A stretch of DNA of 64,000 nucleotides. Origin: Fasciola hepatica. Taxonomy: Eukaryota; Platyhelminthes; Trematoda; Plagiorchiida; Fasciolidae. This document shows, in pieces, positions 22,571 to 57,384 of this stretch. The stretch lies in assembly GCA_948099385.1 (NCBI GenBank), contig CANUEZ040000140.1, positions 62,001-126,000 on the forward strand. Reading direction: 5' to 3'. A model generated the notes under the pieces. It was not told the DNA's origin. It ran no database searches and worked only from the letters and a program-made list of their open reading frames with translations. A program made the position numbers and the translations under genes. How positions within the stretch are numbered: the stretch's first letter is position 1; each line of letters starts with the position of its first letter.

Positions 22571-22753
22571 AAAACTCACACTGCAATACGAATTACATTA
22601 CGTAAAACTTCCCTCTCCTAATACTCACACCACTTCTATGAATTATTCTATTCCTGTACTTTTGTTTAAACGGTCATAATGAATAATTCACTCCATTTCC
22701 CGGTGATTTGTATCGGGATAACTGTTCCCACTTAGTGTAATTTATCAGATAAG

Positions 22754-29309: not shown

Positions 29310-30224
29310 ATTGGTTATTGTAAAAAATATGATGAATCACGCATATTCAACCCCAAACTCCAAGCTGAAAAGTGCGGAAGCGGAGAACAGCTAGTTGATC
29401 ATTGTTGGGAATCATGAGGATTGCACATCGAAAAAGCATAAGGGAGAACAGATTTCGGCATAAAAGGTAGTCAAAAGAAACACCTTAACCGCAAGCAAAT
29501 CAAGGATTGAATTTCAACGCATTGTTAAAAATCTACACTACATGATATAGCACCGTTCCGTCACTGGCTTCTTTTGAACGGTAATAACAAGCACAACCGT
29601 CACACCGATTCACTCCTATCATGGATCGCTTCTCTGTAGGGGCCTAAGTACAACCAACGCATTCCCTTATGAACAACCTACACTGCTACGTTACTATTTG
29701 CAATTGAGTAGTAGGAGATTAGATTTGTATGAAATATGATTGATCATGCAGCTTGAACGCTCAACTCACCATTGAAAAGCATGGAAGCAGTGTACAGCTG
29801 TTTCATCCTTGTTGGGAATCATGAGCAATGCACATCGACCGAGCCACAGGGGAATCGATTTATGCATTAACAATTGACAATCGAATACCTTAAAAACGCC
29901 AGCCTATCATGAGCTGGATCTCATCGCATTGTTCAACATCTACACTACATGATGTAGCACCGTTCCGTCACTGGCTTCTTTTGAACGGCAACAACCAACA
30001 CCACCCACACACCAAACCACCCCATCATGGATCCCTTCTATGAAGGGGCCTGAGTACAACCAACGCATTCCCTCATGAACAACCTACACAGCTTCGTTAC
30101 TATTTGCAATTGAGTAGTGGGAGATTGGATTTGTATATAATATGATTGATCATGCAGCTTGAACGCTCAACTCACCATTGAAATGCATGGAAGCGGTGTA
30201 CAGCTGTTTCATCCTTGTTGGGAA

Positions 30225-33200
30225 TCATGAGCAATGCACATCGAATGAGCACTATGTAGAATCGATTTAATGATGAACGACCGTCATAAGAACACCCTAA
30301 GATCAAGCGTGTCAATGGCTAGATATCAACGGTTTGTTCACCATCTACATTGCATGACACAGCAACTATCAGTCACCGGCTTCTTTTGAACGGTAACAAC
30401 CAGCACAACCCACACCCCGATCCACTCCTATCGTCGATCTCTTCTCGGTAGGGGCCTGAGTACAACCAACGCATTCCCTTATGAACAACCTACACAGCTT
30501 CGTTACTATTTGCAATTGAGTAGTGGGATATTAGATTCGCATATAATATGATTGATCATGCAGCTTTAACGCTCAACTCACCATTGAAAAGCATGGAAGC
30601 AGTGTACATCTGTTTTATCCTTGTTGGGAATCGTGGGCAATGCACATAGACCGAGCCACACGGGGACTCGAATTCGGCGTGGGAATTTGTCAATCGAAAC
30701 CTTAACAGCAAGCCTTTCAAGGGCTGGATCTCATCGCAATTTTCAACATCTACAATACATGATATAGCACCGTTCCTTCACCGGCATCTTCTGAAAGTTA
30801 ACAAACAGTACAAACCACACACCGATCCACTAACTTCATGGAACAATTCTCTGTAGGGGCCTAAGTACAACCAACGCATTCTCTTATGAACAACCATCAC
30901 ACGTTCGTTACTATTTGCAATTGAGTAGTGGGAGATTAAAATTTGCATAGAATAAGATTGTTCATGCAGGTTGAATGCTCAACTCACCATTGAAAAGCAT
31001 GGAAACACTGTACAGCTGTTTCATCCTTCTTGGGACTCATGAGCAAGCCTGTCAAGGGATGTATATCAACGGGTTGCGCAAATAATTTACTACATGATAT
31101 ATCACCGTTCCGACACTGGCGTCTTTTGAACGGTAACAACCAGCACAACCCACACACCGATTCACTCCTATCGTCGATCTCTTCTCGGTAGGGGCCTGAG
31201 TACAACCAACGCATTCCCTTATGAACAACCTACACAGCTACGTTACTATTTGCAATTGAGTAGTGGGAGATTGGATTTGTATAAAATATGATTGATCATG
31301 CAGCTTGAACGCTCAACCCAACATTGAAAAGCATGGAAACACTGTACAGCTGTTTCATCCTTGTTGGGAATCATGAGCAATGCACATCGAAAGAGGATTG
31401 CTGATACTCCATTTAAAAATCAAAAATTGTCAATCGAAATCTTTCACTGCAAGCCTCTCAAAGCCTGGATCTCATCGCATTGTTCAACATCTACACTACA
31501 TGATATAGCACCGTTCCGTCACTGGCTTCTTTTGAACGGCAACATCCAGCACAACCAACACAACGATCCACTCCTATCATGGATCACTTCTCTGTAGGGG
31601 CCTAAGTACAACCAACGCATTCCCTTATGAACAACCATCACACAGTGATAACTATTGGCAATTGAGTAGTGGGAGATTAGATTTGTTTATAATATGATTG
31701 ATCATGCAGCTTGAACGCTCAACTCACCATTGAAAAGCATGGAAGCGGTGTACAGCTGTTTCATCCTTGTTGGGAATCATGAGCAATGCACATCGAAAGA
31801 GCACAACGGGGAATCGCTTTGGCCCTAAACGATTGTCAGACGAAAACCCTAACAGCAAGCCCATCAAGGGCTAGATCTCATCGCATTGTTCAACATTTAC
31901 ACTACATGATATAGCACCCTTCCGTCACTGGCTTCTTTTGAACGGTAACAACCAGCACAACCCACACACCGATCCACTCCTATCATGGATCACTTCTCTT
32001 TAGGGGCCTAAGTACAACCAACGCATTCCCTTATGAACAACCTACACAGCTTCGTTACTATTTGCAATTGAGTAGTGGGAGATTAGGTTTGCATATAATA
32101 TGATTGATCATGCAGCTTGAACGCTCAACTCACCATTGAAAAGCATGGAAGCAGTGTACAGCTGTTTCATCCTTGTTGGGAATCATGAGCAATGCAAATC
32201 GAAAGAGCACAACGGGAAATCGATTACGGCAGGAAAGACGGTCATAGGAACACCGCAAATGCAAGCCTATCAAGGGCTGTATCTCAACGGTTTGCTCATC
32301 ATCTACACTACATGATATAGCACCGTTCCGTCACTGGCTTCTTTTGAACGGTAACAACCAGCACAACCAGCACACCGATCCACTCCTATCATGGATCAAT
32401 TCTCTTTAGGGGCCTAAGTACAACCAACGCATTCCCTTATGAACAACCTACACAGCTTCGTTACTATTTGCAATTGAGTAGTGGGAGATTAGATTTGCAT
32501 ATAATATGATTGATCATGCAGCTTGAACGCTCAACTCACCATTGAAAAGCATGGAAGCAGTGTACAGCTGTTTCATCCTTGTTGGGAATCATGAGCAATG
32601 CACATCGAATGAGCACTATGTAGAATCGATTTAATGATGAACGACCGTCATAAGAACACCCTAAGATCAAGCGTGTCAATGGCTAGATATCAACGGTTTG
32701 TTCACCATCTACATTGCATGACACAGCAACTATCAGTCACCGGCTTCTTTTGAACGGTAACAACCAGCACAACCCACACCCCGATCCACTCCTATCGTCG
32801 ATCTCTTCTCGGTAGGGGCCTGAGTACAACCAACGCATTCCCTTATGAACAACCTACACAGCTTCGTTACTATTTGCAATTGAGTAGTGGGATATTAGAT
32901 TCGCATATAATATGATTGATCATGCAGCTTTAACGCTCAACTCACCATTGAAAAGCATGGAAGCAGTGTACATCTGTTTCATCCTTGTTGGGAATCGTGG
33001 GCAATGCACATAGACCGAGCCACACGGGGACTCGAATTCGGCGTGGGAATTTGTCAATCGAAACCTTAACAGCAAGCCTTTCAAGGGCTGGATCTCATCG
33101 CAATTTTCAACATCTACAATACATGATATAGCACCGTTCCTTCACCGGCATCTTCTGAAAGTTAACAAACAGTACAAACCACACACCGATCCACTAACTT

Positions 33201-34324
33201 CATGGAACAATTCTCTGTAGGGGCCTAAGTACAACCAACGCATTCTCTTATGAACAACCATCACACGTTCGTTACTATTTGCAATTGAGTAGTGGGAGAT
33301 TAAAATTTGCATAGAATAAGATTGTTCATGCAGGTTGAATGCTCAACTCACCATTGAAAAGCATGGAAACACTGTACAGCTGTTTCATCCTTCTTGGGAC
33401 TCATGAGCAAGCCTGTCAAGGGATGTATATCAACGGGTTGCGCAAATAATTTACTACATGATATATCACCGTTCCGACACTGGCGTCTTTTGAACGGTAA
33501 CAACCAGCACAACCCACACACCGATTCACTCCTATCGTCGATCTCTTCTCGGTAGGGGCCTGAGTACAACCAACGAATTCCCTTATGAACAACCTACACA
33601 GCTTCGTTACTATTTGCAATTGAGTAGTGGGAGATTGGATTTGTATAAAATATGATTGATCATGCAGCTTGAACGCTCAACCCAACATTGAAAAGCATGG
33701 AAACACTGTACAGCTGTTTCATCCTTGTTGGGAATCATGAGCAATGCACATCGAAAGAGGATTGCTGATACTCCATTTAAAAATCAAAAATTGTCAATCG
33801 AAATCTTTCACTGCAAGACTCTCAAAGTCTGGATCTCATCGCATTGTTCAACATCTACACTACATGATATAGCACCGTTCCGTCACTGGCTTCTTTTGAA
33901 CGGCAACATCCAGCACAACCAACACAACGATCCACTCCTATCATGGATCACTTCTCTGTAGGGGCCTAATTACAACCAACGCATTCCCTTATGAACAACC
34001 ATCACACAGTGATAACTATTGGCAATTGAGTAGTGGGAGATTAGATTTGTTTATAATATGATTGATCATGCAGCTTGAACGCTCAACTCACCATTGAAAA
34101 GCATGGAAGCGGTGTACAGCTGTTTCATCCTTGTTGGGAATCATGAGCAATGCACATCGAAAGAGCACAACGGGGAATCGCTTTGGCCCTAAACGATTGT
34201 CAGACGAAAACCCTAACAGCAAGCCCATCAAGGGCTAGATCTCATCGCATTGTTCAACATCTACACTACATGATATAGCACCGTTCCATCACTGGCTTCT
34301 TTTGAACGGTAACAACCAGCACAA
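30225..34324. repeat. Higher-order repeat, 2,364-bp period, in the left arm
   Basis: The block at about 30,225-31,960 recurs at about 32,590-34,324 with very few changes. It includes the same divergent units (AATGAGCACTATGTAGAATC at both 30.24 and 32.61 kb) and the same deleted monomer. It spans six monomers, one shortened. Confidence 0.9.
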
Positions 34325-37300
34325 CCCACTAAACGATCCACTCCTATCGTCGATCTATTCTCGGTAGGGGCCTAAGTACAACGAACGCATTCCGTTTTGA
34401 ACAACCTACACAGCTTCGTTTCTATTTGCAATTGAGTAGGAGGAGATTGGATTTGTTTATAATATAATTGATCATGCAGCTTGAACGCTCAACTCACCAT
34501 TGAAAAGCATGGAAGCAGTGTACAGCTGTTTCATCCTTGTTGGGAACCATGGGGAATGCACATCGAAATAGGACTGCTGACACTCGATCATACAATCAAC
34601 CAATATCAATCGAATACTTTCACTGCAAGCCTATCAAAGGCTGGATCTCATCGCATTGTTCAACATCTACACTACATGATATAGCACCGTTCCGTCACTG
34701 GCTTCCTTTGAACGGTAACAACCAGCACAACCCACACACCGATCCACTCCTATCATGAATCACTTCTCTTTAGGGGCCTAAGTACAACCAACGTATTCCC
34801 TTATGAACAACCTACACAGCTTCGTTACTATTTGCAATTGAGTAGTGGGAGATTAGGTTTGCATATAATATGATTGATCATGCAGCTTGAACGCTCAACT
34901 CACCATTGAAAAGCATGGAAGCAGTGTACAGCTGTTTCATCCTTGTTGAGAATCATGAGCAATGCACATCGACCGAGCCACATGGGAATCGATTTATGCA
35001 TTAACAATTGACAATCGAATACCTTAAAAACGCCAGCCTATCATGAGCTGGATCTCATCCCATTGTTCAACATCTACACTACATGATATAGCACCGTTCC
35101 GTCACTGGCTTCTTTTGAACGGTAACAACCAGCACCACCCACACAACGAACAGCCCCATCATGGATCCCTTCTATGAAGGGGCCTGAGTACAACCAACGC
35201 ATTCCCTCATGAACAACCTACACAGCTTCGTTACTATTTGCAATTGAGTAGTGGGAGATTAGATTTGTATATAATATGATTGATCATGCAGCTTGTACTC
35301 TAAAGTCACCATTGAAAAGCATGGAAGCGGTGTACAGCTGTTTCATCCTTGTTGGGAATCATGAGCAATGCACATCGAATGAGCACTATGTAGAATCGAT
35401 TAAATGATGAACGACCGTCATAAGAACACCCTAAGATCAAGCGTGTCAATGGCTAGATATCAACGGTTTGTTCACCATCTACATTGCATGACACAGCAAC
35501 TATCAGTCACCGGCTTCTTTTGAACGGTAACAACCAGCACAACCCACACATCGATCCACTCCTATCATGGATCATTTCTCTGAAGGGCCCTAAGTACAAC
35601 CAACGCATTCCCTTATGAACAACCTACACAGCTTGGTTACTATTTGCAATTGAGTAGTGGGAGATTAGATTTGTATATAATATGATTGATCATGCTGCTT
35701 GAACGCTCAACTCACGATTGAAATGCATGGAAGCAGTGTACAGCTGTTTCATTCTTGTTGGGAATCGTGAGCAATGCACATTGACCGAGCCAAACGGGAA
35801 CTCGATTTCGGCATTAGACTTTGTCAATCGAAAACCTATTTGCAAGCCTTTCAATGGCTGGATCTCATCGCATTTTTCAACATCTACAACACATTATATT
35901 TATTGCTTTATTCACTGGCATCTATTGAACGGTAACAACCAGCACAACCCACACACCGATCTACTCATATCATGGATCACTTCTGTGTAGGGCCCTAAGA
36001 TAAACCAACGCATTCCTTTATGAACAACCTACACAGCTTCGTTACTATTTGAAATTGAGTAGTGCGAGATTAAATTTGTTTTCAATATGATTGATCATGC
36101 AGCTTGAACGCTCAACTCACCATTGAAAAGCATGGAAGCAGTGTACAGCTTTTTCATTCATGTTGAGAATGAAGTGCATTAAAAATCCAAAGAGCCCAAC
36201 TAGGATTGGATTTCGGGGTGAAAGATTGTCAAACGATCACTTCAACGGGAGCATATCCAGGGCAGGAACTCATCGCAATTTGCAACATCTACACTACATG
36301 TTATAGCATCGTTCCGTCACTGGCTTCTTCTGAACAATAACAACCAGCACAACCAACACACCGATCCACTCCTATCATGGATCACTTCTCTGTAGGGGCC
36401 TCAGTACAACGAACGCACTGCCTTATGAACAACCTACAGAGCTTCGTTACTATTTTCAAATTGAGTTGTACGAGATTGGATTTGTATATAATATGATTGA
36501 TCATGCAGCTTGAACGCTCAACTCACTATTGAAAAGCATGGAAACACTGTACAGCTGTTTCATCCTTGTAGCAACTCATGAGCAGTGCACATCCACCGAG
36601 CCTCCACGGGGACTCGAACGAAGGGTGAACGATTGTGAATCGAACACCACAACTACAAGGCTATCCGGGTTGGCTCGCAACCGTTTGTTCAACATCTACA
36701 CTACATGAAATAGCAACCTTCCGTCACTGGCTTTTGAAAGGATTTACAAGCCGATTCTCACACACCGATCGACTCCTATCATGGATGACTCCTCTGTAGG
36801 GGCCTCAGTACAACGAACGCATTCCCTCATGAACAACCTACACAGCTTTGTTACTGTTTGCAAATTGATTTGTACGGGATTAGTTTTGTATATAATATGA
36901 TTGATCATGCAGCTTGAACGCTCAACTCACCATTGGAAAGCATGGAAACACTGTACAGCTGTTTCATCCTTGTTGGGAATCATGAGCAATGCACATCCAC
37001 CGAGCCCCCACGGGGACTTGAACGAAGGGTGAACGATTGTGAATCGAACACCTCAACCACAATGCTATCCGGGTTGGCTCTCAACCGTTTGTTCAACATC
37101 TAATCTACATGTATATTAACCTTCCGTCACTGGCTTTGGAAAGATTTTAAAAACCGATTCTCACACACCGATCGACTCCTATCATGGATGAATCCTCTGT
37201 AGGGGCCTAAGTACAACCAACGCATTCCGTTATGAACAACCTACTCACCTTGGTCACTGTTTGCAAATTGAGTTGTAGGAGATTAGATTTGTATATAATA

Positions 37301-37415
37301 TGATTGATCATGCAGCTTGAACATTCAACTCACCATTGAAAAGCATGGAAGCAGTGTACAGCTGTTTCATCCTTGTTGGGAATCATGAGCAATGCACATC
37401 CACCGAGACCCACGG

Positions 37416-37469
37416 GGACTCGAACGAAGGGTGAACGATTGTGAATCGAACACCTCAACCACAATGCTA
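37416..37469 (-). promoter_or_regulatory. tRNA-like internal promoter (A and B boxes) in an array monomer
   Basis: On the minus strand, the A box TAGCATTGTGG (37,459-37,469) differs from the usual TRGCNNAGYGG at one base. The B box CGTTCGAGTCC (37,416-37,426) differs from GGTTCGANTCC at one base. They are 32 bases apart, within the range of tRNA genes. The ribozyme follows about 30 bases downstream. Neighbouring monomers at 36.6, 37.0, 37.8 and 38.2 kb carry the same B-box block. Confidence 0.6.
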
Positions 37470-38940
37470 TCCGGGTTGGCTCTCAACCGTTTGTTCAACA
37501 TCTACACTACATGAAATAGCCACCTTCCTTCACTGGCTTTTGAAAGGATTTACAACCCGATTCTCACACACCGATCCACTCCTATCATGGATGAATTCTC
37601 TGTAGGGGCCTCAGTACAACGAACGCATTCCGTTATGAAAAATCTACAGAGCTTCGTCACTGTTTGCAAATTGAGTTGTAGGAGATTAGATTTGTATATA
37701 ATATGATTGATCATGCAGCTTGAACGCTCAACTCACCATTGAAAAGCATGGAAACACTGTACAGCTGTTTCATCCTTGTTGGGAATCATGAGCAGTGCAC
37801 ATCCACCGAGCCCCCACGGGGACTCGAACGAAGGGTGAACGATTGTGAATCGAACACCTCAACCACAATGCTATCCGGGTTGCCTCTCAACCGTTTGTTC
37901 AATATCTACACTACAGCATAAAGCACCCTTCCGTCACTGGCTTTTTTGAACGGTAACAACCCGATTCTCACACACCGATCCACTAGTATGATGTATGAAT
38001 CCTCTGTAGGGGCCTAAGTACAACCAACGCATTCCGTTATGAACAATATACAGAGCCTAATTACTGATTGCAAATTGAGTTGTACCAGATTAGATTTGTA
38101 TATAATATGATTGATCATGCAGCTCGAACGCTCAACTCACCATTGAAAAGCATGGAAACACTGTACAGCTGTTTCATCCTTGTTGGGAATCATGAGCAAT
38201 GCACATCCACCGAGCCCCCACGGGGACTCGAACGAAGGGTGAACGATTGTGAATCGAACACCTCAACCACAAGTCTATCCGGGTTGGCTCTCAGCGTTTG
38301 TTCAACATCTACACTACATGATATTGCACCCTTCCGTCACTGGCTTCTTTTGTGCGGTAAATCCGACTTCCCGCACAGCGATCGACTCATATTTTCGGTC
38401 GGTTCTCTGTAGGGGCCTAAGTACAACCAACGCATTCCGTTATGAACAACCTACACAGCTTCGTTACTATTTGCAGTTGAGTAGTGGGAGATTAGATTTG
38501 TATATAATATGAAGGATCACGCAGCTTGAACGCTCAGCTCACCATTGAAATGATGTTATCACTGTCCATCTGATTCATCCCTTTTTGGAATCATCAGCAT
38601 TGCACATCCATCGAATACATACGGGTAGACGGAACCGTGGTGAACGATTGCCAAAGGAAAGTATTCATCGTAAGATTATCTGGGTGAGCTCGAAATGCTC
38701 TGTACAAAATAAAAATCCATGATATAGCACCCTTCCGACACTGGCTTCTTTTGAACGGTAACAAACATATTCCCGCACATCGATCGTCTCACATGATCGA
38801 TGGCTTCTCTCTAGGGGCCTATGTGCACCCAACGCATTCCCCCACGAACAACCTACACTGTTTGCATACTATTTTCTATTGAGTACTTGCAGCTTAGACT
38901 TAAATTTGAACGCTCAACTCACCATTGAATAGCATGGACA

Positions 38941-38984
38941 CACTGTACAGCTGATTCATCCTCTTTGGGAATCATCAGAAATGC
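38941..38984 (-). ncRNA. Hammerhead motif next to the junction, left side
   Basis: The minus strand shows CTGATGA (38,972-38,978), stem II with TCCC/AGAGGA-type pairing, then GAATC in place of GAAAC, and CTGTA at the cleavage side. The first core strand is intact. The base after GAA is T, which breaks the usual A15.1-U16.1 pair. Confidence 0.6.
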
Positions 38985-39089
38985 ACACCCTTCGAGCCCA
39001 CATGGTGCCTGGGACACGTCGCGAACGATTGTATTTCGAAAATCCTAATCAGAATAATATCCGGGATGGCTCGCAACGCTTTGTTCAAC

Positions 39090-39180
39090 ATCTACACGAC
39101 ATGTTATAGCACCTTCTCTTCACGGTTTCCATTCCCTGTGGGTGCTCGATGGATTTGCAATTCTGAGATTTCAATGGTGA
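39090..39180. other. Head-to-head junction of the two array arms
   Basis: Up to about 39,115 the monomer reads in left-arm orientation (TCTACACGACATGTTATAGC). From about 39,125 it reads as the reverse complement (CCCTGTGGGTGCTCGATGGA, then TTTCAATGGTGAGTTGAGCG). The switch occurs inside monomers, with no unique spacer, so the array is a very large imperfect inverted repeat. Confidence 0.92.
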
Positions 39181-39515
39181 GTTGAGCGTTCAAGCTACAT
39201 GATGAATCATTTTATACAAATCTAATCTCGTACTACTCAATTGCAAATAGTAATCAAGCTGTGTAGGTTGTTCATAAGGGAATGCGTTCCTTGTACTCAT
39301 GAACTACAGAGAAACCATCGAACATGGGAGTCGATCGGTGTGCGCAAAACGTGATGATACCGTTCAAAAGAAGCCAGTGACGGAACGGTGCTATATCATT
39401 TAGTGTATGTGTTCAACAAATCGTTGAGATCCATTCAGGATAGCATTCTTATTATAATTATCTATTGACAATCGTTCACCACGGTATCCCGTTCCCGTGA
39501 GGGCTCGGTGGATGT

Positions 39516-39559
39516 GCATTGCTGATGATTCCAAAGAGGATGAATCACCTGTAGAGTGC
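39516..39559 (+). ncRNA. Hammerhead motif next to the junction, right side
   Basis: GCATTG, then CTGATGA (39,522-39,528), a TTCC/GGAT-type stem II, GAATC, and GTA at 39,551-39,553. It has the same CTGATGA + GAATC combination as its mirror-image neighbours, and so does the next unit (CTGATGA at 39,923-39,929). Confidence 0.6.
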
Positions 39560-40399
39560 TTCCATGCATTCCAATGGTGAGTTGAGCGATCAAGCTGCAT
39601 GATCAATTATTTTATACAAATCTTATCTCCTACTACTCATATGCAAATATTAAGCAAGCTGTGTATGTTGTTCATCAGGGAATGCGATCGTTGTAATTAG
39701 ACACGTACAGGGATGCAATCGATCATGGGAGTCGATCGCTGTGCGGGAAGTGGGTTGTTACCGTTCAAAAGAAGCCAGTGACGAAAGAGTGCTATATCAT
39801 TTAGTGTAGATGTTGAACAAAGCGTTGAGATCCAGGCCAGATAGACTTCTGATGGAGGTCATCGTTTGACAACTGTTCTCCCCGGGTTCCAGTACCCGTG
39901 TGGTCTCGATCGATGTGCATTGCTGATGATTCCCGATAGAGATGAATCAGTTGTGCATTACTTTCATGCTTTTCAATGGTGAGTTCAGCGTTCAAGCTGC
40001 ATGATCAATCATATTATATACAAATCTAATCTCCTACAACTCAATTGCAAATATTAAGCTATCTGCGTATGTTGTTCTTAGGGGAATTAGTTCGTTGTAC
40101 TTAGGCCCCTACAGAGAAGCCTTCGATCATGGGAGTCGATCGCTTTGCGGGAAGTGGGTTGTTACCGTTCAAAAGAAGTCTGTGACGGAACGGTGCTATA
40201 TTTTGTAGTGGAGACGTTGAACAATGATTTGCGATCCATCCCGGATATCCCCCTGATTAGGATATTTGAAAGACAAAGGTCCACGATCTGTACCATTGCC
40301 CGTGTGGGCTCGATGGAGTAGAATTGGTGTTGATTCCCACCAGCGATTTTAAAGCTGCACACTGCGTCCATGCTTTTCAATGGTGAGTTGAGCGTTCAA

Positions 40400-43300: not shown

Positions 43301-44500
43301 TAACGAAGCTGTGTAGGTTGTTCATAAGGGAATGCGTTGGTTTTACTTAGGCCCATACAGGGAAGTGATCCATGATAGGAGTGGATCGGTGTGTGGGTTG
43401 TGCTGGTTGTTACCATTCAAAAGAAAACAGTGACGGAACGGTGCCATATGATGTAGTGTAGATGTTGAACAAACCGTTGAGATCCATCACTGGATATGCT
43501 TGTGTTTGAGGATTTCAATTGACAATCGTTCATGCGGAAATGGAGTCCCCGTTGTGCTGTTTCGATATGCATTGATCATGATTCCCAACAAGGATGAAAC
43601 AGCTGTACACTGCTTCCATGCTTTACAATGGTGAGTTGAGCGTTCAAGCTGCATGATCAATCATATTATATACAAATCTAATCTCCCACTACTCAATTGC
43701 AAATAGTAACGAAGCTGTGTAGGTTGTTCATAAGGGAATGCGTTGGTTGTACTTAGGCCCCTACAGAGAAGTGATCCATGATAGGATTGGATCAATGTGT
43801 TGGGTTTGCTTTTTGTAAGCGTTCACTTGGATCCAGTGACGGAACGGTGCTACATCATGTAGTGTAGATTTTGAACAAACCGTTGAGATCCATCACTGGA
43901 TATGCTTGCGTTTGAGGATTCCAATTGACAATAGTTCATGCGGAAATGGAGTCCCCGTTGTGCTCCTTCGATGTGCATTGCTCATGATTCCCAACAAGGA
44001 TGAAACAGCTGTACACTGCTTCCATGCTTTTCAATGGTGAGTTGAGCGTTCAAGCTGCGTGATCAATCATATTATATACAAATCTAATCTCCCACTACTC
44101 AATTGCAAATAGTAACCAAGCTGTGTAGGTTGTTCATAAGGGAATGCGTTGGTTGTACTTAGGCCCGTACAGAGAAGTGATCCATGATAGGAGTGGATCG
44201 GTGTGTGGGATGTGCTGGTTGTTAGCGTTCAAAAGCAGCCAGTGACGGAACGGTGCTATATCATGTAGTGTAGATGTTGAACAAACCGTTGAGATCCATC
44301 CCTGGATATGCTTGCGAATCGCGTGTTCGATTGACAATCGTTCATGCGGAAATGGAGTCCCAGTGGGGCTCGGTCGATGTGCATTGCTCATGATTCCCAA
44401 CAAGGATGAAACAGCTGTACACTGCTTCCATGCTTTTCAATGGTGAGTTGAGCGTTCAAGCTGCGTGATCAATCATATTATATAGAAATCTAATCTCCCA
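40400..44500. repeat. Higher-order repeat, about 2,030-bp (five-monomer) period, in the right arm
   Basis: Units near 40.49-41.3 kb recur near 42.52-43.3 kb, 2,030 bp apart, with matching private variants such as ACCATTCAAAAGAAAACAG. A related unit recurs three monomers later at 44.1-44.4 kb. Confidence 0.8.
44381..44425 (+). ncRNA. Representative hammerhead motif of the homogenised units
   Basis: GCATTG (stem I), CTCATGA (44,387-44,393), a 14-nt stem-loop II closed by ATTCC/GGAT, GAAAC, AGCT, GTA (44,417-44,419), then CACTGC (stem I, five of six pairs). The motif is complete except for C in place of the invariant G5 in CTGATGA. Other units have ATCATGA at this place. Stem III is the palindrome ACAGCTGT. 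Confidence 0.7.
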
Positions 44501-47500
44501 CTACTCAATTGCAAATAGTAACGAAGCTGTGTAGGTTGTTCATAAGGGAATGCGTTGGTTGTACTTAGGCGCCTACAGAGGAGTGATCCATGATAGGAGT
44601 GGATCAATGTGTGGGGTTTGCTGGTTGTTACCGTTCAATTGAAGCCAGTGCACGTAAGTTGATATATCACGTACTGTAAATGTTGAACAAGCCGTTGAGA
44701 TCCATCACTGGATAAGCTTGTGTTTGAGGATTTCATTTGACAACCGTTCATGCGGAAATGGGATCCCCGTGTGGCTCAGTCGATGTGCATTTCTCATGAT
44801 TCCCAACAAGGATGAAACAGCTGTACACTGCCTCCATGCTTGTCAATGGTAAGCTGAGCGTTCAAGCTGCGTGATCAATCATATTATATACAAATCTAAT
44901 CTCCCACTACTCAATTGCAAATAGTAACGAAGCTGTGTAGGTTGTTCATAAGGGAATGCGTTGGTTGTACTTAGGCCCCTACAGAGAAGTTATCCATGAT
45001 AGGAGTGGATCGGTGTGTGGGATGTGCTGGTTGTTAGCGTTCAAAAGAAGCCAGTGACGGAACGGTGCTATATGATGTAGTGTAGATGTTGAACAAACCG
45101 TTGAGATCCATCACTGGATATGCTTGTGTTTGAGGATTTCAATTGACAATCGTTCATGCGGAAATGGAGTCCCCGTTCTGCTCTTTCGATGTGCATTGAT
45201 CATGATTCCCAACAAGGATGAAACAGCTGTACACTGCTTCCATGCTTTACAATGGTGAGTTGAGCGTTCAAGCTGCATGATCAATCATATTATATACAAA
45301 TCTAATCTCCCACTACTCAATTGCAAATAGTATCGAAGCTGTGTAGGTTGTTCATAAGGGAATGCGTTGGTTGTACTTAGGCCCATACAGGGAAGTGATC
45401 CATGATAGGAGTGGATCGGTGTGTGGGTTGTGCTGGTTGTTACCGTTCAAAAGAAGCCTGTTACTGAAAGGTGATATATGAGGTACTGTATACGTTGAAC
45501 AAACCGTTGAGATCCATCCCTGGATAAGCTTGCTGTTAACGTGTTCAATTGACAATCGTTCATGAGGAAATCGAGTGCCCGTGGGGCTCTTTAGATGTGC
45601 ATTGCTCATGATTCCCAACAAGGATGAAACAGCTGTACACTGCTTCCATGCTTGTCAATGGTAAGCTGAGCGTTCAAGCTGCGTGATCAATCATATTATA
45701 TACAAATCTAATCTCCCACTACTCAATTGCAAATAGTAACGAAGCTGTGTAGGTTGTTCATAAGGGAATGCGTTGGTTGTACTTAGGCCCATACAGAGAA
45801 GTTATCCATGATAGGAGTGGATCGGTATGTGGGATGTGCTGGTTGTTAGCGTTCAAAAGAAGCCAGTGACGGAACGGTGCTGTATGATGTAGTGTAAATG
45901 TTGAACAAACCGTTGAGATCCATCACTGGATATGCTTGCGTTTGAGGATTTCAATTGACAATCGTTCATGCGGAAATGGAGTCCCCGTGGTGCTACTTCG
46001 ATGTGCATTGATCATGATTCCCAACAAGGATGAAACAGCTGTACACTGCTTCCATGCTTTTCAATGGTGAGTTGAGCGTTCAAGCTGCATGATCAATCAT
46101 ATTATATACAAATCTAATCTCCCACTACTCAATTACAAATAGTAACGAAGCTGTGTAGGTTGTTCATAAGGGAATGCGTTGGTTGTACTTAGGCCCGTAC
46201 AGAGAATTGATCCATGATAGGAGTGCATCGGTGTGTGGGTTGTGCTGGTTGTTACCATTCAAAAGAAAACAGTGACGGAACGGTGCTATATGATGTAGTG
46301 TAGATGTTGAACAATCCGTTGAGATCCATGACTGGATATGCTTGTGTTTGAGGATTTCAATTGACAATCGTTCATGCGGAAATGGAGTCCCCGTTGTGCT
46401 CTTTCGATGTGCATTGCTCATGATTCCCAACAAGAATGAAACAGCTGTACACTGCTTCCATGCTTTTCAATGGTGAGTTGAGCGTTCAAGCTGCATGATC
46501 AATCATATTATATACAAATCTAATCTCCCACTACTCAGTTGCAAATGGTAACCAAGCTGTGTAGGTTGTTCATAAGGGAATGCGTTGGTTGTACTTAGGC
46601 CCATACAGGGAAGTGATCCATGATAGGAGTGGATCGGTGTGTGGGTTGTGCTGGTTGTTACCGTTCAAAAGAAAATACTGATGGAACGGTGCTATATCAT
46701 GTAGTTTAGATGATAAAAAATGCGATGAGATCCAGCCCTCGATAGGCTGGCGTTTGAGGTGTTCGATTGACAATCGTGTAGGCGGAAAGCGAGTCTCCGT
46801 AGTGCTCTCTCGATGTGCATTGCTCATGATTCCCAACAAGGATGAAACAGCTGTACACTGCTTCCATGCTTTTCAATGGTGAGTTGAGCGTTCAAGCTGC
46901 ATGATCAATCATATTATATACAAATCTAATCTCCCACTACTCAGTTGCAAATGGTAACCAAGCTGTGTAGGTTGTTCATAAGGGAATGCGTTGGTTGTAC
47001 TTAGGCCCATACAGGGAAGTGATCCATGATAGGAGTGGATCGGTGTGTGGGTTGTGCTGGTTGTTACCGTTCAAAAGAAGCCAGTGATGGAACGGTGCTA
47101 TATCATGTAGTTTAGATGATAAATAATGCGATGAGATCCAGCCCTTGATAGGCTGGCGTTTGAGGTGTTCGATTGACAATCGTGTAGGCGGAAAGCGAGT
47201 CTCCGTAGTGCTCTCTCGATGTGCATTGATCATGATTCCCAACAAGGATGAAACAGCTGTACACTGCTTCAATGCTTTTCAATGGTGAGTTGAGCGTTCA
47301 AGCTGCATGATCAATCATATTATATACAAATCTAATCTCCCACTACTCAATTGCAAATAGTAACGAAGCTGTGTAGGTTGTTCATAAGGGAATGCGTTGG
47401 TTGTACTTAGGCCCCTACAGAGAAGTCATCCTTCATTGGAGTCGATCGGTGTGTGGGTTGTGCTGGTTGTTACCGTTCAAAAGAAGCCAGTGATGGAACG

Positions 47501-50500
47501 GTGCTATATCATGTAGTGTACATGTTGAACAATGCGATGAAAGGTAGCCCTTGATAGGGTTTCTTTTGAGGTGTTCGTATGAATGTCGTTCATGCCGAAA
47601 TGGAGTCCCCGCAGTAATATTTTGATAAGCATTGCTCATGATTCCCAACAAGGATGAAACAGCTGTACACCGCTTCCGTGCTTTTCAATGGTGAGTTGAG
47701 CGTTCAAGCTGCATGATCAATCATATTATATACAAATCTAATCTCCCACTACTCAGTTGCAAATAGTAACGAAGCTGTGTAGGTTGTTCATAAGGGAAAG
47801 CGTTGGTTGTAATTAGGCCCATACACGGAAGTGATCCATGATAGGAGTGGATCGGTGTGTGGGTTGTGCTGGTTGTTACCGTTCAAAAGAAGCCAGTGAT
47901 GGAACGGTGCTATATCATGTAGTGTACATGTTGAACAATACGATGAAAGGCAGCTCTTGATAGGCTGGCGTTTGAGGTGTTCGTATGAAGTTGTTACATA
48001 CCGAAATGGAGTCCCCGCAGTAATCTTTTGATAAGCATTGCTCATGATTCCCAACAAGGATGGAACAGCTGTACACTGCTTCCGTGCTTTTCAATGGTGA
48101 GTTGAGCGTTCAAGCTGCATGATCAATCATATTATATACAAATCTAATCTCCCACTACTCGATTGCAAATAGTAACCAAGCTGTATTAGGTTATTCATAA
48201 GGGAATGCGTTTCTTGTAATTAGCCCCTACAGAGAAGTGATCCATCATAGGAGTGGATCGGTGTGTGGGTTGTGCTGGTTGTTACTGTTCAAAAGAAAAT
48301 ACTGATGAAACGGTGCTATATCATGTAGTTCAGATGATAAAAAATGCGATGAGATCCAGCCCTCGATAGGCTGGCGTTTGAGGTGTTCGATTGACAATCG
48401 TGTAGGCGGAAAGCGAGTCTCCGTAGTGCTCTCTCGATGTGCATTGCTCATGATTCCCAACAAGGATGAAACAGCTGTACACTGCTTCAATGCTTTTCAA
48501 TGGTGAGTTGAGCGTTCAAGCTGCATGATCAATCATATTATATACAAATCCAATCTCCCACTACTCAATTGCAAATAGTAATGAAGCTGTGTAGGTTGTT
48601 CATAAGGGAATGCGTTGGTTGTACTTAGGCCCATACAGAGAAGTGCTCCATGAGAGGAGTGGATCGGTATGTGTGTTGTGCTGGTTGTTACCGTTCAAAA
48701 GAAGCCAGTGACGGAACGGTGCTATATCATGTAGTGTAGATGTTGAAAAATGCGATGAAAGGCAGCCCTTGATAGGCTGGCGTTTGAGGTGTTCGTATGA
48801 AGGTCGTTCATACCGGAATGGAGTCCCCGCAGTAATCTTTTGATAAGCATTGCTCATGATTCCCAACAAGGATGAAACAGCTGTACACTGCTTCCATGCT
48901 TTTCAATGGTGAGTTGAGCGTTCAAGCTGCGTGATCAATCATATTATATACAAATCTAATCTCCCACTACTCAATTGCAAATAGTAACCAAGCTGTGTAG
49001 GTTGTTCATAAGGGAATGCGTTGGTTGTACTTAGGCCCATACAGGGAAGTGATCCATGATAGGAGTGGATCGGTGTGTGGGTTGTGCTGGTTGTTACCGT
49101 TCAAAAGAAAATACTGATGGAACGGTGCTATATCATGTAGTTCAGATGATAAAAATTGCGATGAGATCCAGCCCTCGATAGGCTGGCGTTTGAGGTGTTC
49201 GATTGACAATCGTGTAGGCGGAAAGCGAGTCTCCGTAGTGCTCTCTCGATGTGCATTGCTCATGATTCCCAACAAGGATGAAACAGCTGTACACTGCTTC
49301 CATGCTTTTCAATGGTGAGTTGAGCGTTCAAGCTGCATGATCAATCATATTATATACAAATCTAATCTCCCACTACTCAATTGCAAATAGTAACGAAGCT
49401 GTATTAGGTTATTCATAAGGGAATGCGTTGGTTGTACTTAGGCCCATACAGGGAAGTGATCCATGATAGGAGTGGATCGGTGTGTGGGTTGTGCTGGTTG
49501 TTACCGTTCAAAAGAAGCCAGTGATGGAACGGTGCTATATCATGTAGTGTACATGTTGAACAATACGTTGAAAGGCAGCCCTTGATAGGCTGGCGTTTGA
49601 GGTGTTCGATTGACAATCGTGTAGGCGGAAAGCGAGTCTCCGAAGTGCTCTCTCGATGTGCATTGCTCATGATTCCCAACAAGGATGAAACAGCTGTACA
49701 CTGCTTCCATGCTTTTCAATGGTGAGTTGAGCGTTCAAGCTGCATGATCAATCATATTATATACAAATCCAATCTCCCACTACTCAGTTGCAAATGGTAA
49801 CCAAGCTGTGTAGGTTGTTCATAAGGGAATGCGTTGGTTGTACTTAGGCCCATACAGGGAAGTGATCCATGGTAGGAGTGGATCGGTGTGTGGGTTGTGC
49901 TGGTTGTTCCCGTTCAAAAGAAGCCAGTGACGGAACGGTGCTATATCATGTAGTGTAGATGTTGAAAAATGCGATGACAACCAGCACGTGATAGGCTTGC
50001 GGTTCTGGTGTTTGATTGACTATCGTGTATGCGAAAAGCGATTCTCCGTAGTGCTCTCTCGATGTGCATTGCTCATGATTCCCAACAAGGATGAAACAGC
50101 TGTACACTGTTTCCATGCTTTTCAATGGTGAGTTGAGCGTTCAAGCAGCATGATCAATCATATTATATACAAATCTAATCTCCCACTACTCAGTTGCAAA
50201 TAGTAATGAAGCTGTGTAGGTTGTTCATAAGGGAATGCGTTGGTTGTACTTAGGCCCATACAGGGAAGTGATCCATGATAGGAGTGGATCGGTGTGTGGG
50301 TTGTGCTGGTTGTTACCGTTCAAAAGAAGCCAGTGACGGAACGTTCCTATATAATGTAGTGTAGATGTTGAACAATGCGATGAAAGGCAGCCCTTGATAG
50401 TGTTTCTTTTGAGGTGTTCGTATGAAGGTCGTTCATGCCGAAATGGAGTCCCGCAGTTATCATTTGATAAGCATTGCTCATGATTCCCAACAAGGATGAA

Positions 50501-53399
50501 ACAGCTGTACACTGCTTCCATGCTTTTCAATGGTGAGTTGAGCGTTCAAGCTGCATGATCAATCATATTATATACAAATCTAATCTCCCACTTCTCAATT
50601 GCAAATAGTATCGAAGCTCTATTAGCGTGTTCATAAGGGAATGCATTGGTTGTACTTAGGCCCATACAGGGAAGTGATCCATGATAGGAGTGGATCGGTT
50701 TGTGGGTTGTGCTGGTTGCTACCGTTCAAAAGAAGCCAGTGACGGAACGGTGCTATATGATGTAGTGTAGATGTTGAAAAATGCGATGAAAGGCAGCCCT
50801 TGATAGGCTGGCGTTTGAGGTGTTCGATTGACAATCGTGTAGGCGGAAAGCGAGTCTCCGTAGTGCTCTCTCGATGTGCATTGCTCATGATTCCCAACAA
50901 GGATGAAACAGCTGTACACTGCTTCCATGCTTGTCAATGGTAAGCTGAGCGTTCAAGCTGCGTGATCAATCATATTATATACAAATCTAATCTCCCACTA
51001 CTCAATTGCAAATAGTAATGAAGCTGTGTAGGTTGTTCATAAGGGAATGCGTTGGTTGTAATTAGGCCCATACAGGGAAGTGATCCATGATAGGAGTGGA
51101 TCGGTGTGTGGGTTGTGCTGGTTGTTACCGTTCAAAAGAAGCCAGTGATGGAACGGTGCTATATCATGTAGTGTACATGTTGAACAATACGTTGAAAGGC
51201 AGCCCTTGATAGGCTGGCGTTTGAGGTGTTCGTATGAAGGTCGTTCATACCGAAATGGAGTCCCCGCAGTAATATTTTGATAAGCATTGCTCATGATTCC
51301 CAACAAGGATGAAACAGCTGTACACTGCTTCCATGCTTTTCAATGGTGAGTTGAGCGTTCAAGCTGCATGATCAATCATATTATATACAAATCTAATCTC
51401 CCACTACTCAATTGCAAATAGTAACGAAGCTGTATTAGGTTATTCATAAGGGAATGCGTTGGTTGTACTTAGGCCCATACAGGGAAGTGATCCATGATAG
51501 GAGTGGATCGGTGTGTGGGTTGTGCTGGTTGTTACCGTTCAAAAGAAGCCAGTGATGGAACGGTGCTATATCATGTAGTTTAGATGATAAATAATGCGAT
51601 GAGATCCAGCCCTTGATAGGCTGGCGTTTGAGGTGTTCGATTGACAATCGTGTAGGCGGAAAGCGAGTCTCCGTAGTGCTCTCTCGATGTGCATTGCTCA
51701 TGATTCCCAACAAGGATGAAACAGCTGTACACTGCTTCAATGCTTTTCAATGGTGAGTTGAGCGTTCAAGCTGCAAGATCAATCATATTATATACAAATC
51801 TAATCTCCCACTACTCAGTTGCAAATAGTAATGAAGCTGTGTAGGTTGTTCATAAGGGAATGCGTTGGTTGTACTTAGGCCCATACAGGGAAGTGATCCA
51901 TGATAGGAGTGGATCGGTGTGTGGGTTGTGCTGGTTGTTACCGTTCAAAAGAAGCCAGTGACGGAACGGTGCTATATCATGTAGTGTAGATGTTGAAAAA
52001 TGCGATGACAACCAGCACGTGATAGGCTTGCGGTTCTGGTGTTTGATTGACTATCGTGTATGCGAAAAGCGATTCTCCGTAGTGCTCTCTCGATGTGCAT
52101 TGCTCATGATTCCCAACAAGGATGAAACAGCTGTACACTGCTTCCATGCTTTTCAATGGTGAGTTGAGCGTTCAAGCTGCATGATCAATCATATTATATA
52201 CAAATCTAATCTCCCACTACTCAATTGCAAATAGTAACGAAGCTGTATTAGGTTATTCATAAGGGAATGCGTTGGTTGTAATTAGGCCCATACAGGGAAG
52301 TGATCCATGATAGGAGTGGATCGGTGTGTGGGTTGTGCTGGTTGTTACCGTTCAAAAGAAGCCAGTGACGGAACGTTCGTATATAATGTAGTGTACATGT
52401 TGAACAATGCGATGAAAGGCAGCCCTTGATAGGGTTTCTTTTGAGGTGTTCGTATGAAGGTCGTTCATGCCGAAATGGAGTCCCGCAGTTATCATTTGAT
52501 AAGCATTGCTCATGATTCCCAACAAGGATGAAACAGCTGTACACTGCTTCCATGCTTTTCAATGGTGAGTTGAGCGTTCAAGCTGCATGATCAATCATAT
52601 TATATACAAATCTAATCTCCCACTTCTCAATTGCAAATAGTATCGAAGCTCTATTAGCTTGTTCATAAGGGAATGCGTTGGTTGTACTTAGGCCCATACA
52701 GGGAAGTGATCCATGATAGGAGTGGATCGGTTTGTGGGTTGTGCTGGTTGCTACCGTTCAAAAGAAGCCAGTGACGGAACGGTGCTATATCATGTAGTGT
52801 AGATGTTGAAAAATGCGATGAGATCCAGCCCTCGATCGGCTGGCGTTTGAGGTGTTCGATTGACAATCGTGTAGGCGGAAAGCGAGTCTCCGTAGTGCTC
52901 TCTCGATGTGCATTGCTCATGATTCCCAACAAGGATGAAACAGCTGTACACTGCTTCCATGCTTTTCAATGGTGAGTTGAGCGTTCAAGCTGCATGATCA
53001 ATCATATTATATACAAATCTAATCTCCCACTACTCAATTGCAAATAGTAACCAAGCTGTATTAGGTTATTCATAAGGGAAGGCTTTTTTTGTAATTAGCC
53101 CCTACAGAGAAGTGATCCATGATAGGAGTGGATCGGTGTGTGGGTTGTGCTGGTTGTTACCGTTCAAAAGAAAATACTGATGGAACGGTGCTATATCATG
53201 TAGTTTAGATGATAAAAAATGCGATGAGATCCAGCCCTTGATAGGCTGGCGTTTGAGGTGTTCGATTGACAATCGTGTAGGCGGAAAGCGAGTCTCCGTA
53301 GTGCTCTCTCGATGTGCATTGCTCATGATTCCCAACAAGGATGAAACAGCTGTACACTGCTTCAATGCTTTTCAATGGTGAGTTGAGCGTTCAAGCTGC

Positions 53400-56300
53400 A
53401 TGATCAATCATTTTATATACAAATCTAATCTCCCACTACTCAATTGCAAATAGTAACGAAGCTGTGTAGGTTGTTCATAAGGGAATGCGTTGATTGTACT
53501 CAGGCCCCTTCATAGAAGAGATCCATGATAGGAGTGGATCGGTGTGTGGGTTGTGCTGGTTGTTCCCGTTCAAAAGAAGCCAGTGACGGAACGGTGCTAT
53601 ATCATGTAGTGTAGATGTTGAAAAATGCAATGACAACCAGTACGTGATAGGCTTGCGGTTATGGTGTTTGATTGACAATCGTGTAGGCGGAAATCGAGTC
53701 TCCGTAGTGCTCTCTCGATGTGCATTGCTCATGATTCCCAACAAGGATAAAACAGCTGTACACCGCTTCCATGCTTTTCAATGGTGAGTTGAGCGTTCAA
53801 GCTGCATGATCAATCATATTATATACAAATCTAATCTCCCACTACTCAGTTGCAAATAGTAATGAAGCTGTGTAGGTTGTTCATAAGGGAATGCGTTGGT
53901 TGTACTTAGGCCCATACAGGGAAGTGATCCATGATAGGAGTGGATCGGTGTGTGGGTTGTGCTGGTTGTTACCGTTCAAAAGAAGCCAGTGATGAAACGG
54001 TGCTATATCATGTAGTGTACATGTTGAACAATGCCATGAAATGCAGCCCTTGATAGGGTTTCTTTTGAGGTGTTCGTAAGAACGTCGTTCATGCCGAAAT
54101 TAAGTCCCGCATTAATCATTTGATACGCAATGCTCATGATTCCCAACAAGGATGAAACAGCTGTACACTGCTTCCATGCGTTTCATTGGTGAGTTGAGCG
54201 TTCAAGCTGCATGATCAATCATATTATATACAAATCTAATCTCCCACTACTCAGTTGCAAATGGTAACCAAGCTGTGTAGGTTGTTCATAAGGGAATGCG
54301 TTGGTTGTACTTAGGCCCGTACAGAGAAGTCATCCTTCATAGGAGTGGATCGGTGTGTGGGTTGTGCTGGTTGTTACTGTTCAAAAGAAAATACTGATGG
54401 AACGGTGCTATATGATGTAGTGTAGATGTTGAAAAATGCGATGAGATCCAGCCTTTGATAAGCTGGCGTTTATGGTGTTCGATGGACTTTCCTTCACCCT
54501 GAAATCGAGTCCTATTGGGGCTCTTTCGATGTTCAAGTCCCTTCAATCTCAACAAGGATGAAACAGCTGTACACTGCTTCCATGCTTTTCAATGGTGAGT
54601 TGAGCGTTCAAGCTGCATGATCAATCATATTATATACAAATCTAATCTCCCACTTCTCAATTGCAAATAGTAACCAAGCTGTGTAGGTTGTTCATAAGGG
54701 AATGCGTTGCTTTTACCTAGGCCAATTCATAGAAATGGTTCATTATAGGAGTAGATCATTGTGTGGGTTGTGCTGGTTGTTACCGTTCAAAAGAAGCCAG
54801 TGATGGAACGGTGCTAAATCATGTAGTGTAGATGTTGAAAAATGCAATGAGATCCAGCCCTCGATAGGCTGGCGTTTGAGGTGTTCGATTGACAATCGTG
54901 TAGGCGGAAAGCGAGTCTCCGTAGTGCTCTCTCGATGTGCATTGCTCATGATTCCCAACAAGGATAAAACAGCTGTACACCGCTTCCATGCTTTTCAATG
55001 GTGAGTTGAGCGTTCAAGCTGCATGATCAATCATTTTATATACAAATCTAATCTCCCACTACTCAATTGCAAATAGTAACGAAGCTGTGTAGGTTGTTCA
55101 TAAGGGAATGCGTTGATTGTACTCAGGCCCCTTCATAGAAGAGATCCATGATAGGAGTGGATCGGTGTGTGGGTTGTGCTGGTTGTTCCCGTTCAAAAGA
55201 AGCCAGTGACGGAACGGTGCTATATCATGTAGTGTAGATGTTGAAAAATGCAATGACAACCAGTACGTGATAGGCTTGCGGTTATGGTGTTTGATTGACA
55301 ATCGTGTAGGCGGAAATCGAGTCTCCGTAGTGCTCTCTCGATGTGCATTGCTCATGATTCCCAACAAGGATAAAACAGCTGTACACCGCTTCCATGCTTT
55401 TCAATGGTGAGTTGAGCGTTCAAGCTGCATGATCAATCATTTTATATACAAATCTAATCTCCCACTACTCAGTTGCAAATAGTAATGAAGCTGTGTAGGT
55501 TGTTCATAAGGGAATGCGTTGGTTGTACTTAGGCCCATACAGGGAAGTGATCCATGATAGGAGTGGATCGGTGTGTGGGTTGTGCTGGTTGTTACCGTTC
55601 AAAAGAAGCCAGTGATGAAACGGTGCTATATCATGTAGTGTACATGTTGAACAATGCCATGAAATGCAGCCCTTGATAGGGTTTCTTTTGAGGTGTTCGT
55701 AAGAACGTCGTTCATGCCGAAATGAAGTCCCGCATTAATCATTTGATACGCAATGCTCATGATTCCCAACAAGGATGAAACAGCTGTACACTGCTTCCAT
55801 GCGTTTCATTGGTGAGTTGAGCGTTCAAGCTGCATGATCAATCATATTATATACAAATCTAATCTCCCACTACTCAGTTGCAAATGGTAACCAAGCTGTG
55901 TAGGTTGTTCATAAGGGAATGCGTTGGTTGTACTTAGGCCCGTACAGAGAAGTCATCCTTCATTGGAGTCGATCGGTGTGTGGGTTGTGCTGGTTGTTAC
56001 TGTTCAAAAGAAAATACTGATGGAACGGTGCTATATGATGTAGTGTAGATGTTGAAAAATGCGATGAGATCCAGCCTTTGATAAGCTGGCGTTTATGGTG
56101 TTCGATGGACTTTCCTTCACCCTGAAATCGAGTCCTATTGGGGCTCTTTCGATGTTCAAGTCCCTTCAATCTCAACAAGGATGAAACAGCTGTACACTGC
56201 TTCCATGCTTTTCAATGGTGAGTTGAGCGTTCAAGCTGCATGATCAATCATATTATATACAAATCTAATCTCCCACTTCTCAATTGCAAATAGTAACCAA

Positions 56301-56650
56301 GCTGTGTAGGTTGTTCATAAGGGAATGCGTTGCTTTTACCTAGGCCAATTCATAGAAATGGTTCATTATAGGAGTAGATCATTGTGTGGGTTGTGCTGGT
56401 TGTTACCGTTCAAAAGAAGCCAGTGATGGAACGGTGCTAAATCATGTAGTGTAGATGTTGAAAAATGCAATGAGATCCAGCCCTCGATAGGCTGGCGTTT
56501 GAGGTGTTCGATTGACAATCGTGTAGGCGGAAAGCGAGTCTCCGTAGTGCTCTCTCGATGTGCATTGCTCATGATTCCCAACAAGGATAAAACAGCTGTA
56601 CACCGCTTCCATGCTTTTCAATGGTGAGTTGAGCGTTCAAGCTGCATGAT
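53400..56650. repeat. Higher-order repeat, 1,623-bp (four-monomer) period, two copies
   Basis: The private marker ATCATTTTATATAC occurs at about 53,407, 55,030 and 56,653, each 1,623 bp apart. The four monomers in between match one by one, including the odd unit with TTCAATCTCAACAAGGATG. The near-identity marks this as among the youngest changes in the array. Confidence 0.92.
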
Positions 56651-57340
56651 CAATCATTTTATATACAAATCTAATCTCCCACTACTCAATTGCAAATAGT
56701 AACGAAGCTGTGTAGGTTGTTCATAAGGGAATGCGTTGGTTGTACTTAGGCCCATACAGGGAAGTGATCCATGATAGGAGTGGATCGGTATGTGGGTTGT
56801 GCTGGTTGTTACCGTTCAAAAGAAGCCAGTGACGGAACGGTGCTATATCATGTAGTGTAGATGTTGAAAAATGCGATGAAAGGCAGCCCTTGATAGGCTG
56901 GCGTTTGAGGTGTTCGATTGACAATCGTGTAGGCGGAAAGCGAGTCTCCGTAGTGCTCTCTCGATGTGCATTGCTCATGATTCCCAACAAGGATGAAACA
57001 GCTGTACACTGCTTCCATGCTTTTCAATGGTGAGTTGAGCGTTCAAGCTGCATGATCAATCATATTATATACAAATCTTATCTCGTACAACTCAATTTGC
57101 AAATAGTAACGAAGCTGTGTAGGTTGTTCATAAGGGAATGCGTTGGTTGTACTTAGGCCCCTACGGAGAAGTCATCCTTCATAAGAGTCGATCGGTTTGT
57201 GAGAATCGGGTTGTTACCGTTCAAAAGAAGCCAGTGACGGAACGGTGCTATATCATGTAGTGTAGATGTTGAACAAATGGTTGAGAGCCAACCCGGATTG
57301 CCTTGTGTTTGACGTGTTCGATTCACAATCGTTCACCCTT

Positions 57341-57351
57341 CGTTCGAGTCC
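57341..57351 (+). promoter_or_regulatory. B-box-like motif in the last array monomer
   Basis: CGTTCGAGTCC is the same as in the left-arm units at 36.6-38.3 kb. It is absent from most right-arm units, where the block has drifted to forms such as AAATGGAGTCC or AAAGCGAGTCT. Confidence 0.5.
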
Positions 57352-57384
57352 CCGTGGGGGCTCGGTGGATGTACACTTCTGATT

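Follow-up and report, generated by a model that had tools for sequence, protein, structure and literature searches.

Three groups of described systems, compared here as they appear in excerpts of the cited papers, come close to the subject of this report, a tRNA-headed, hammerhead-derived repeat of about 406 bp that forms a large two-armed array in a 64,000-nucleotide stretch of the Fasciola hepatica genome (assembly GCA_948099385.1, contig CANUEZ040000140.1, positions 62,001 to 126,000; hereafter the window, or C140:62001-126000 in our contig numbering). The first group comprises the SINE-like Sm-alpha/Sj-alpha hammerhead repeats and the W-elements, all from schistosomes (PMC2770079, PMC8490949), which share with the F. 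hepatica element a tRNA-like head, a type I hammerhead and satellite-like copies. For instance, tRNA-Gln-TTG pseudogenes have been linked to Sm-alpha (PMC2770079), and copies with a broken core have also been reported among elements of this type (PMC8490949). The F. hepatica element differs from these relatives in its 400–406 bp unit and its frequent head-to-head insertions. The second group, the animal retrozymes without long terminal repeats (non-LTR retrozymes), is likewise built of tandem units (150–450 bp) with a type I hammerhead (PMC7229834). One of them, HHR_Amex2, has the same 2-bp stem III with a tetraloop and the same U-U at the base of stem II, and the unit GC content of 45–48% measured here compares with values below 50% in animal retrozymes (PMC7229834). 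Unlike these, our element has a tRNA head, and head-to-head insertion with two end sites is not described in the excerpted account, which names Penelope-like elements (PLEs) as strong candidate movers of animal retrozymes (PMC7229834). PLEs themselves are the third group, and share head-to-head copies with a 31-bp tail that is optional on one inverted copy, as well as target duplications of 8–10 bp, microhomology at junctions and a hammerhead near the start of reverse transcription (PMC3846280, PMC11167929). In the anole PLE the protein cuts and extends both strands, two adjacent internal starts bound the tail, and reverse transcription begins 85–92 nt below the cut site (computed from +26 and +111–118; PMC11167929). 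Hammerhead mutants of this element still insert in vitro (PMC11167929), which means that insertion may go on after the ribozyme has died. In contrast to PLEs, the F. hepatica retrozyme has no open reading frame (ORF), and its sequence is unlike the PLE region that was read.

Set beside these systems, the window array is best read as a decayed and enlarged member of a very common tRNA-headed hammerhead mobile element. We consider it likely that this element is a non-autonomous retrozyme of the Sm-alpha sort, inserted by two-ended target-primed reverse transcription (TPRT) of the PLE type, with the array as an old member. A search of the genome (1.5 Gb, 656 contigs) found a core with both hammerhead motifs intact in 13,233 places (4423+8810) and a reversed control pattern in none; CUGANGA and GAAA are thus both present in the genome family but not together in the window array. 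As in animal retrozymes, the units stand in tandem and carry a type I hammerhead, for which catalysis is predicted in intact copies. A young genomic unit has, by eye, a stem I of CACTG/CAGTG and contains the B box GGTTCGAGTCC. A tRNA-like head with a B box, which characterizes an Sm-alpha-like, tRNA-derived short interspersed nuclear element (SINE), is present in the family. Locus L051 holds 19 cores over two arms, and 17 of its whole units differ at 0–2 of 400 positions from one reference unit, the arms being alike; L033 has five identical units with four shared differences from L051. Prokaryote and viral collections, searched with exact 27-base and 20-base patterns of the monomer, contain no match.

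The structure of individual insertions carries most of the argument. Among the matches listed from the 13,233 places, about 53 loci were grouped by eye and 34 were read (L031–L064), 28 in the order of the list, of which 17 are head to head, and six (L051–L056) chosen for their head-to-head look. Copies lie head to head in 23 of the 34, always minus then plus; the smallest insertion comprises two partial copies and the largest 19 nearly identical units, and most are shorter than two units. Orientation changes from minus to plus in 22 cases and from plus to minus in none; L052, split by a missing alignment, was read separately as minus then plus and is counted as head to head with ends at 97 and 68. 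Outer ends favour two positions below the cut site of the ribozyme, at about 65 and about 96 nt (39 of 46), with 20 short ends (unit position 55–72), 19 long ends (85–103) and seven elsewhere. A long end is paired with a short one in 15 of the 23 loci, where permutation gives 8.4 and reached 15 in only 15 of 20,000 rounds; two loci are short/short, none is long/long and six have an odd end (the odd-ended L035, L037, L059 and L063 were kept among the 23). The 11 single-orientation insertions have seven long ends, three short ends and one odd end. Arm junctions are scattered along the unit, and by raw counts 13 of 22 overlap by 1–5 nt, one abuts and eight hold 1–35 extra nt. A target duplication of at least 8 bp, 8–13 bp in length, was found at 17 of 31 usable loci and at 12 of 20 usable head-to-head loci, compared with 2.25% of 2000 mismatched flank pairs; this count excludes L049, L053 and L060, which have AT repeats or inverted flanks but stay among the 23. 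At L051, the flanks share 12 bases. Head-to-head copies, a tail of 30–40 nt on one end and a short target duplication, the marks of PLE-type insertion, were therefore all found.

These loci also bear on two other ways in which opposed arms could arise. The array might be an ordinary satellite, in which a chromosomal inversion broke one tandem array and flipped part of it, so that the two-arm form would owe nothing to retrotransposition. Growth at the DNA level is evident in the window, where segments duplicated at about 99.3% identity lie inside each arm and subfamilies are mostly arm-specific, and a large single-orientation array does exist at C67. We nevertheless judge this explanation unlikely, as an inversion does not account for a head-to-head form that recurs in the same order, in small insertions, many of them with target duplications, or for two favoured outer ends across the genome loci. 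The same loci make simple inversion unlikely as a general cause of the head-to-head form. An assembly artefact, in which fold-back reads make inverted arms, is very improbable: in a set of 23 loci whose flanks were compared, shared inverted flank words occur only at L053 and at the AT-repeat locus L049, the arms are unequal, and in the window their sequences are distinct (unit identity at best 0.92 across arms and up to 1.00 within an arm). What speaks for an artefact is L053, whose inverted-repeat flanks share 287 14-mers and could represent either a palindromic target or an assembly fold-back. The 23 head-to-head insertions elsewhere support the reality of the two-arm form that had been proposed from the window sequence alone.

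Because a 400-bp unit leaves no room for an ORF, the retrozyme can only be a non-autonomous partner. An ORF with reverse transcriptase (RT) and GIY-YIG domains is absent from it and present elsewhere in the genome. Of 302 candidates, 150 were scored, with 90 GIY-YIG matches, 11 of which lie in open frames of 798–869 amino acids (aa); such frames can include flank, and the 869-aa frame (L066) belongs to a 5'-truncated copy. The 828-aa frame at C72 also contains an RT domain (PF00078, 43.3 bits, cut-off 29.6) and, because it joins RT to GIY-YIG, is a PLE by domain content. Among these matches, ten close pairs of opposite orientation were counted by eye, each in minus-then-plus order; such frames lie on C72, C107, C41, C47, C182 and other contigs. 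The ends of two head-to-head PLE loci, C72 and C41, were read, those of C41 at the places predicted from C72. In both, the left end is at +122 and the right end at +56, measured from the same motif, and the flanks share 12 and 15 bp, respectively. One layout is thus common to the retrozyme and the autonomous PLE: head to head, one long and one short end, and a target duplication. In the L065 PLE frame, neither the first 134 aa nor the last 102 aa had a Pfam match, and no solved structures were found for its RT piece.

The shared layout is also relevant to the possibility that the element is a SINE moved by an ordinary long interspersed nuclear element (LINE), the head-to-head form arising by twin priming. 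Variable 5' truncation and target duplications would suit any target-primed process, and an open frame near the array (60879–61466) is LINE-like in appearance, with no Pfam match. However, the two arms derive from the same RNA segment (at L041, unit positions 349–61 and 236–95), two end sites about 31 nt apart are favoured, an A-tail is not apparent by eye in the ends displayed, and it is a PLE of the same genome that has the same layout. Movement by a LINE is accordingly quite improbable.

Under a PLE-type origin, the tRNA-like block would act as promoter for transcription, and intact copies would cleave themselves at unit position 0. Insertion takes place as one event, as shown in about half of copies by the 8–13 bp target duplication that bounds them; in most copies the 3' ends lie at about 65 or about 96 nt below the site of cleavage, whereas 5' ends fall anywhere. 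The observed layout suggests that reverse transcription may start from both broken target ends, as a rule once per site, and that the two cDNAs may meet midway to give the minus-then-plus arms. The enzyme would be a Penelope-like RT/GIY-YIG endonuclease, which we propose because the published hallmarks match and a PLE of this genome has the same layout. Long arms of near-identical 400-bp units could be copied from a circular or multimeric RNA template. The window array itself would be an old head-to-head insertion, with its left end at position 68 (the short type), that was later enlarged and trimmed; its amplified units would have lost G5 and the B box, and the array would then have grown by segmental DNA duplication. 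This history is partly shown by the absence of intact cores, the left end and the duplicated segments.

In the window, Tandem Repeats Finder places the 406-bp repeat in two opposed arms, with several rows between 29376 and 38885 and one row at 39169–57335. A 57-nt core probe has 71 window matches: 25 array cores on the minus strand (29429 to 38989), 44 on the plus strand (39511 to 56963), a solo copy at 22499, and a match of 21 nt at 16584, which was dropped from core counts. A plus unit at the junction has no ribozyme core and, by end mapping and by eye, is the 45th unit of the right arm. The array ends at 29310 or 29318 on the left, depending on which of two mappings is used, and at 57395 on the right. 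The left arm (29310..39129) consists of 25 units of about 406 bp with the ribozyme strand on minus and its outer end at unit position 68, and the right arm (39130..57395, plus) of 45 units, 44 with a core, its outer end broken within the ribozyme core at unit position 384. The sequence-only reading had described about 70 units of about 406 bp in two opposed arms with ribozyme strands pointing outward from the centre, and repeat finder and core probe bear this out, with the minus arm on the left and the plus arm on the right. Its count of 45 for the right arm holds, but its 24 for the left becomes 25 by the core probe. The junction units (38560..39970; cores 38608-, 38989-, 39511+ and 39912+) keep CTGATGA and carry A15.1→T. 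At the right edge, a truncated unit (57270..57395, plus) has an intact B box by eye, keeps G5 and shows TTCTGA at the break. The solo 5'-truncated copy (22407..22627, plus) contains a tRNA-like block (22411–22494) and a core (22505–22547) and ends at unit position 88.

The hammerhead ancestry of the array units is clear from their motifs and relatives. The S. mansoni 26-nt core (PMC7118274) is found with at most five mismatches, in fact four or five, at 38 places, all within the array; 100 shuffled windows have no such place, only one at six mismatches and five at seven. Because the array units are copies of each other, these 38 places count as one event. With a hammerhead descriptor, the solo copy is the single match in the window and has four of five stem I pairs; none of the 16 places found in 100 shuffles is paired to that extent. 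An alignment of 70 cores, 69 from the array plus the solo copy, shows that no array core has both CUGANGA and GAAA intact. G5 is replaced by C in 64 of the 69, and the other five are the four junction units with A15.1→T (two with a further change) and core 40316, with six changes. Only the solo copy among the 70 keeps all core letters, and its stem II pairs at just two of four positions. Across the 70, stem I is fully paired in six, stem II in four and stem III in 64. G5 is essential for hammerhead activity. Changes in CUGANGA or GAAA can leave hammerheads inactive or slow, and a CUGANAA candidate did not cleave (PMC8490949). Because no core is intact and G5→C is so widespread, the hammerhead-derived array very probably has a ribozyme that is dead by known rules, and a circular 406-nt RNA would not be expected from it. 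The claimed order of CTNATGA, stem-loop, GAAA and GTA thus stands, but the notation CT(G/C)ATGA and GAAA/GAAT hides the fact that the two motifs are never intact together in an array unit, and the monomers are better called hammerhead-derived than hammerhead-bearing in the working sense. A working ribozyme in the array was rejected on the same count. Selection on the array's ribozyme core was likewise rejected: core diversity is 0.06–0.07 and that of body positions 1–98 is 0.03–0.08, and because the body is equally conserved the core is not singled out.

For the tRNA-like block, ARAGORN at 95–100% of its threshold finds no tRNA in the 64-kb window. Lowering the threshold to 85% yields four places, of which two, in the solo copy and in a junction unit (39819..39907, plus), immediately precede a hammerhead core; at 80% there are 42. 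The presence of such a block upstream of the hammerhead, as first read from the sequence, is supported by the two hits at 85%. A B box with at most one mismatch is present in four of 64 window units, all of them inner-left, and one with two mismatches in six of 64; inner-left units at 36600..38300 (minus) are one or two mismatches off the consensus. Random 125-bp flank pieces contain a B box at one mismatch or fewer in 4 of 2000 cases. In both arms no other part of the monomer varies as much as this block (diversity 0.23–0.30), with 6.2 changes per site vs 1.4–2.6 elsewhere on the body tree and 4.0 vs 1.5–2.7 on the whole-unit tree. Two 334-bp units (31054–31388 and 33418–33752), near-copies of each other, have lost most of it.

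Growth of the array can be followed in its segments. The stretch 30128..31965 recurs 2364 bp further on at 99.35% identity, a signature of unequal exchange, and 53213..55132 recurs 1623 bp on at 99.3%. A tree of 64 units (unit trees left out 31388, 33752 and 38989) has four arm changes, while shuffled labels have a mean of 17.8 and a least value of 11. Taken with the unit identities given above, these duplications and the arm-wise clustering indicate that much of the growth was at the DNA level, after the split into arms. Identity to the young genomic unit averages 82% over 67 whole-unit stretches of the window. The G5→C form of the core is found at 635+480 genome places and, among the matches listed, all but eight lie in C67 at 21.09–21.44 Mb, on one strand and many in 401-bp steps. 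This array (L069) extends over at least 21.09–21.44 Mb in a single orientation; the 2.4 kb of it that were read contain seven cores, six with G5→C and one without a core change, together with five intact B boxes. G5→C therefore accompanies large satellites in at least two arrays, a correlation from these two, with the B box kept at C67. A bolder proposal, which we offer tentatively and hold to be possible rather than probable, is that hammerhead satellites of the head-to-head form arise in a single step, when a PLE enzyme opens the target and performs rolling-circle reverse transcription of an RNA circle made by the hammerhead, from both broken ends and into two arms of several units each, and that G5→C then frees the array from the RNA cycle to grow as a plain satellite.

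Several observations weigh against a hammerhead retrozyme inserted by a PLE-type enzyme. Rfam has no match in the window at the gathering threshold, the best lax hammerhead match there scores 19 bits (E 2.8) where the cut-off is 52, the solo copy has no Rfam hammerhead match, and shuffled sequences fold as well as the solo and array cores do. The covariance check that had been suggested is thus negative for monomers, junction units and solo copy alike, although the motifs and relatives still show ancestry. At the insertion level, the long/short rule fails in 8 of the 23 head-to-head loci, 14 of 31 loci have no clear target duplication, and that of L038 sits in an AAT-rich stretch. The right end of the window array at position 384 is non-canonical, and no target duplication was found around the array or around the solo copy. 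The motif from which the PLE ends are measured resembles a hammerhead in its 3' half only, and a strict hammerhead descriptor finds nothing in the PLE start region read. The PLE ends at 56 and 122 are 66 nt apart, vs about 31 nt for the retrozyme ends at 65 and 96, and the PLE start region scores 25 and 26 against the retrozyme unit, below shuffled maxima of 38 and 39. On these scores, no sequence homology was found between the retrozyme and the one PLE family read. Since positions and sequence both differ, a PLE partner of the retrozyme remains putative.

The arrangement had been thought new among hammerhead satellites. Head-to-head copies are known in PLEs (PMC3846280), but a small hammerhead element that shares this type of insertion seems to be new. 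A literature search joining hammerhead ribozyme, satellite DNA and head-to-head found no paper, and one for a 406-bp tandem repeat in trematodes returned a mitochondrial paper only. PLEs are so far a candidate mover of animal hammerhead retrozymes (PMC7229834), and more than 13,000 places with an intact core make the question testable by counting, as many insertions preserve their two ends, the point where the arms meet and the duplicated target. If correct, insertion by a PLE-type enzyme would explain the origin of two-armed satellites and their fate after ribozyme loss.

Elsewhere in the window, a 138-bp tandem repeat of eight copies, 99% alike, occupies 12182–13284, and an RNase H fragment of a reverse transcriptase (PF17917, 27.3 bits) lies on the minus strand at 14043–14423.

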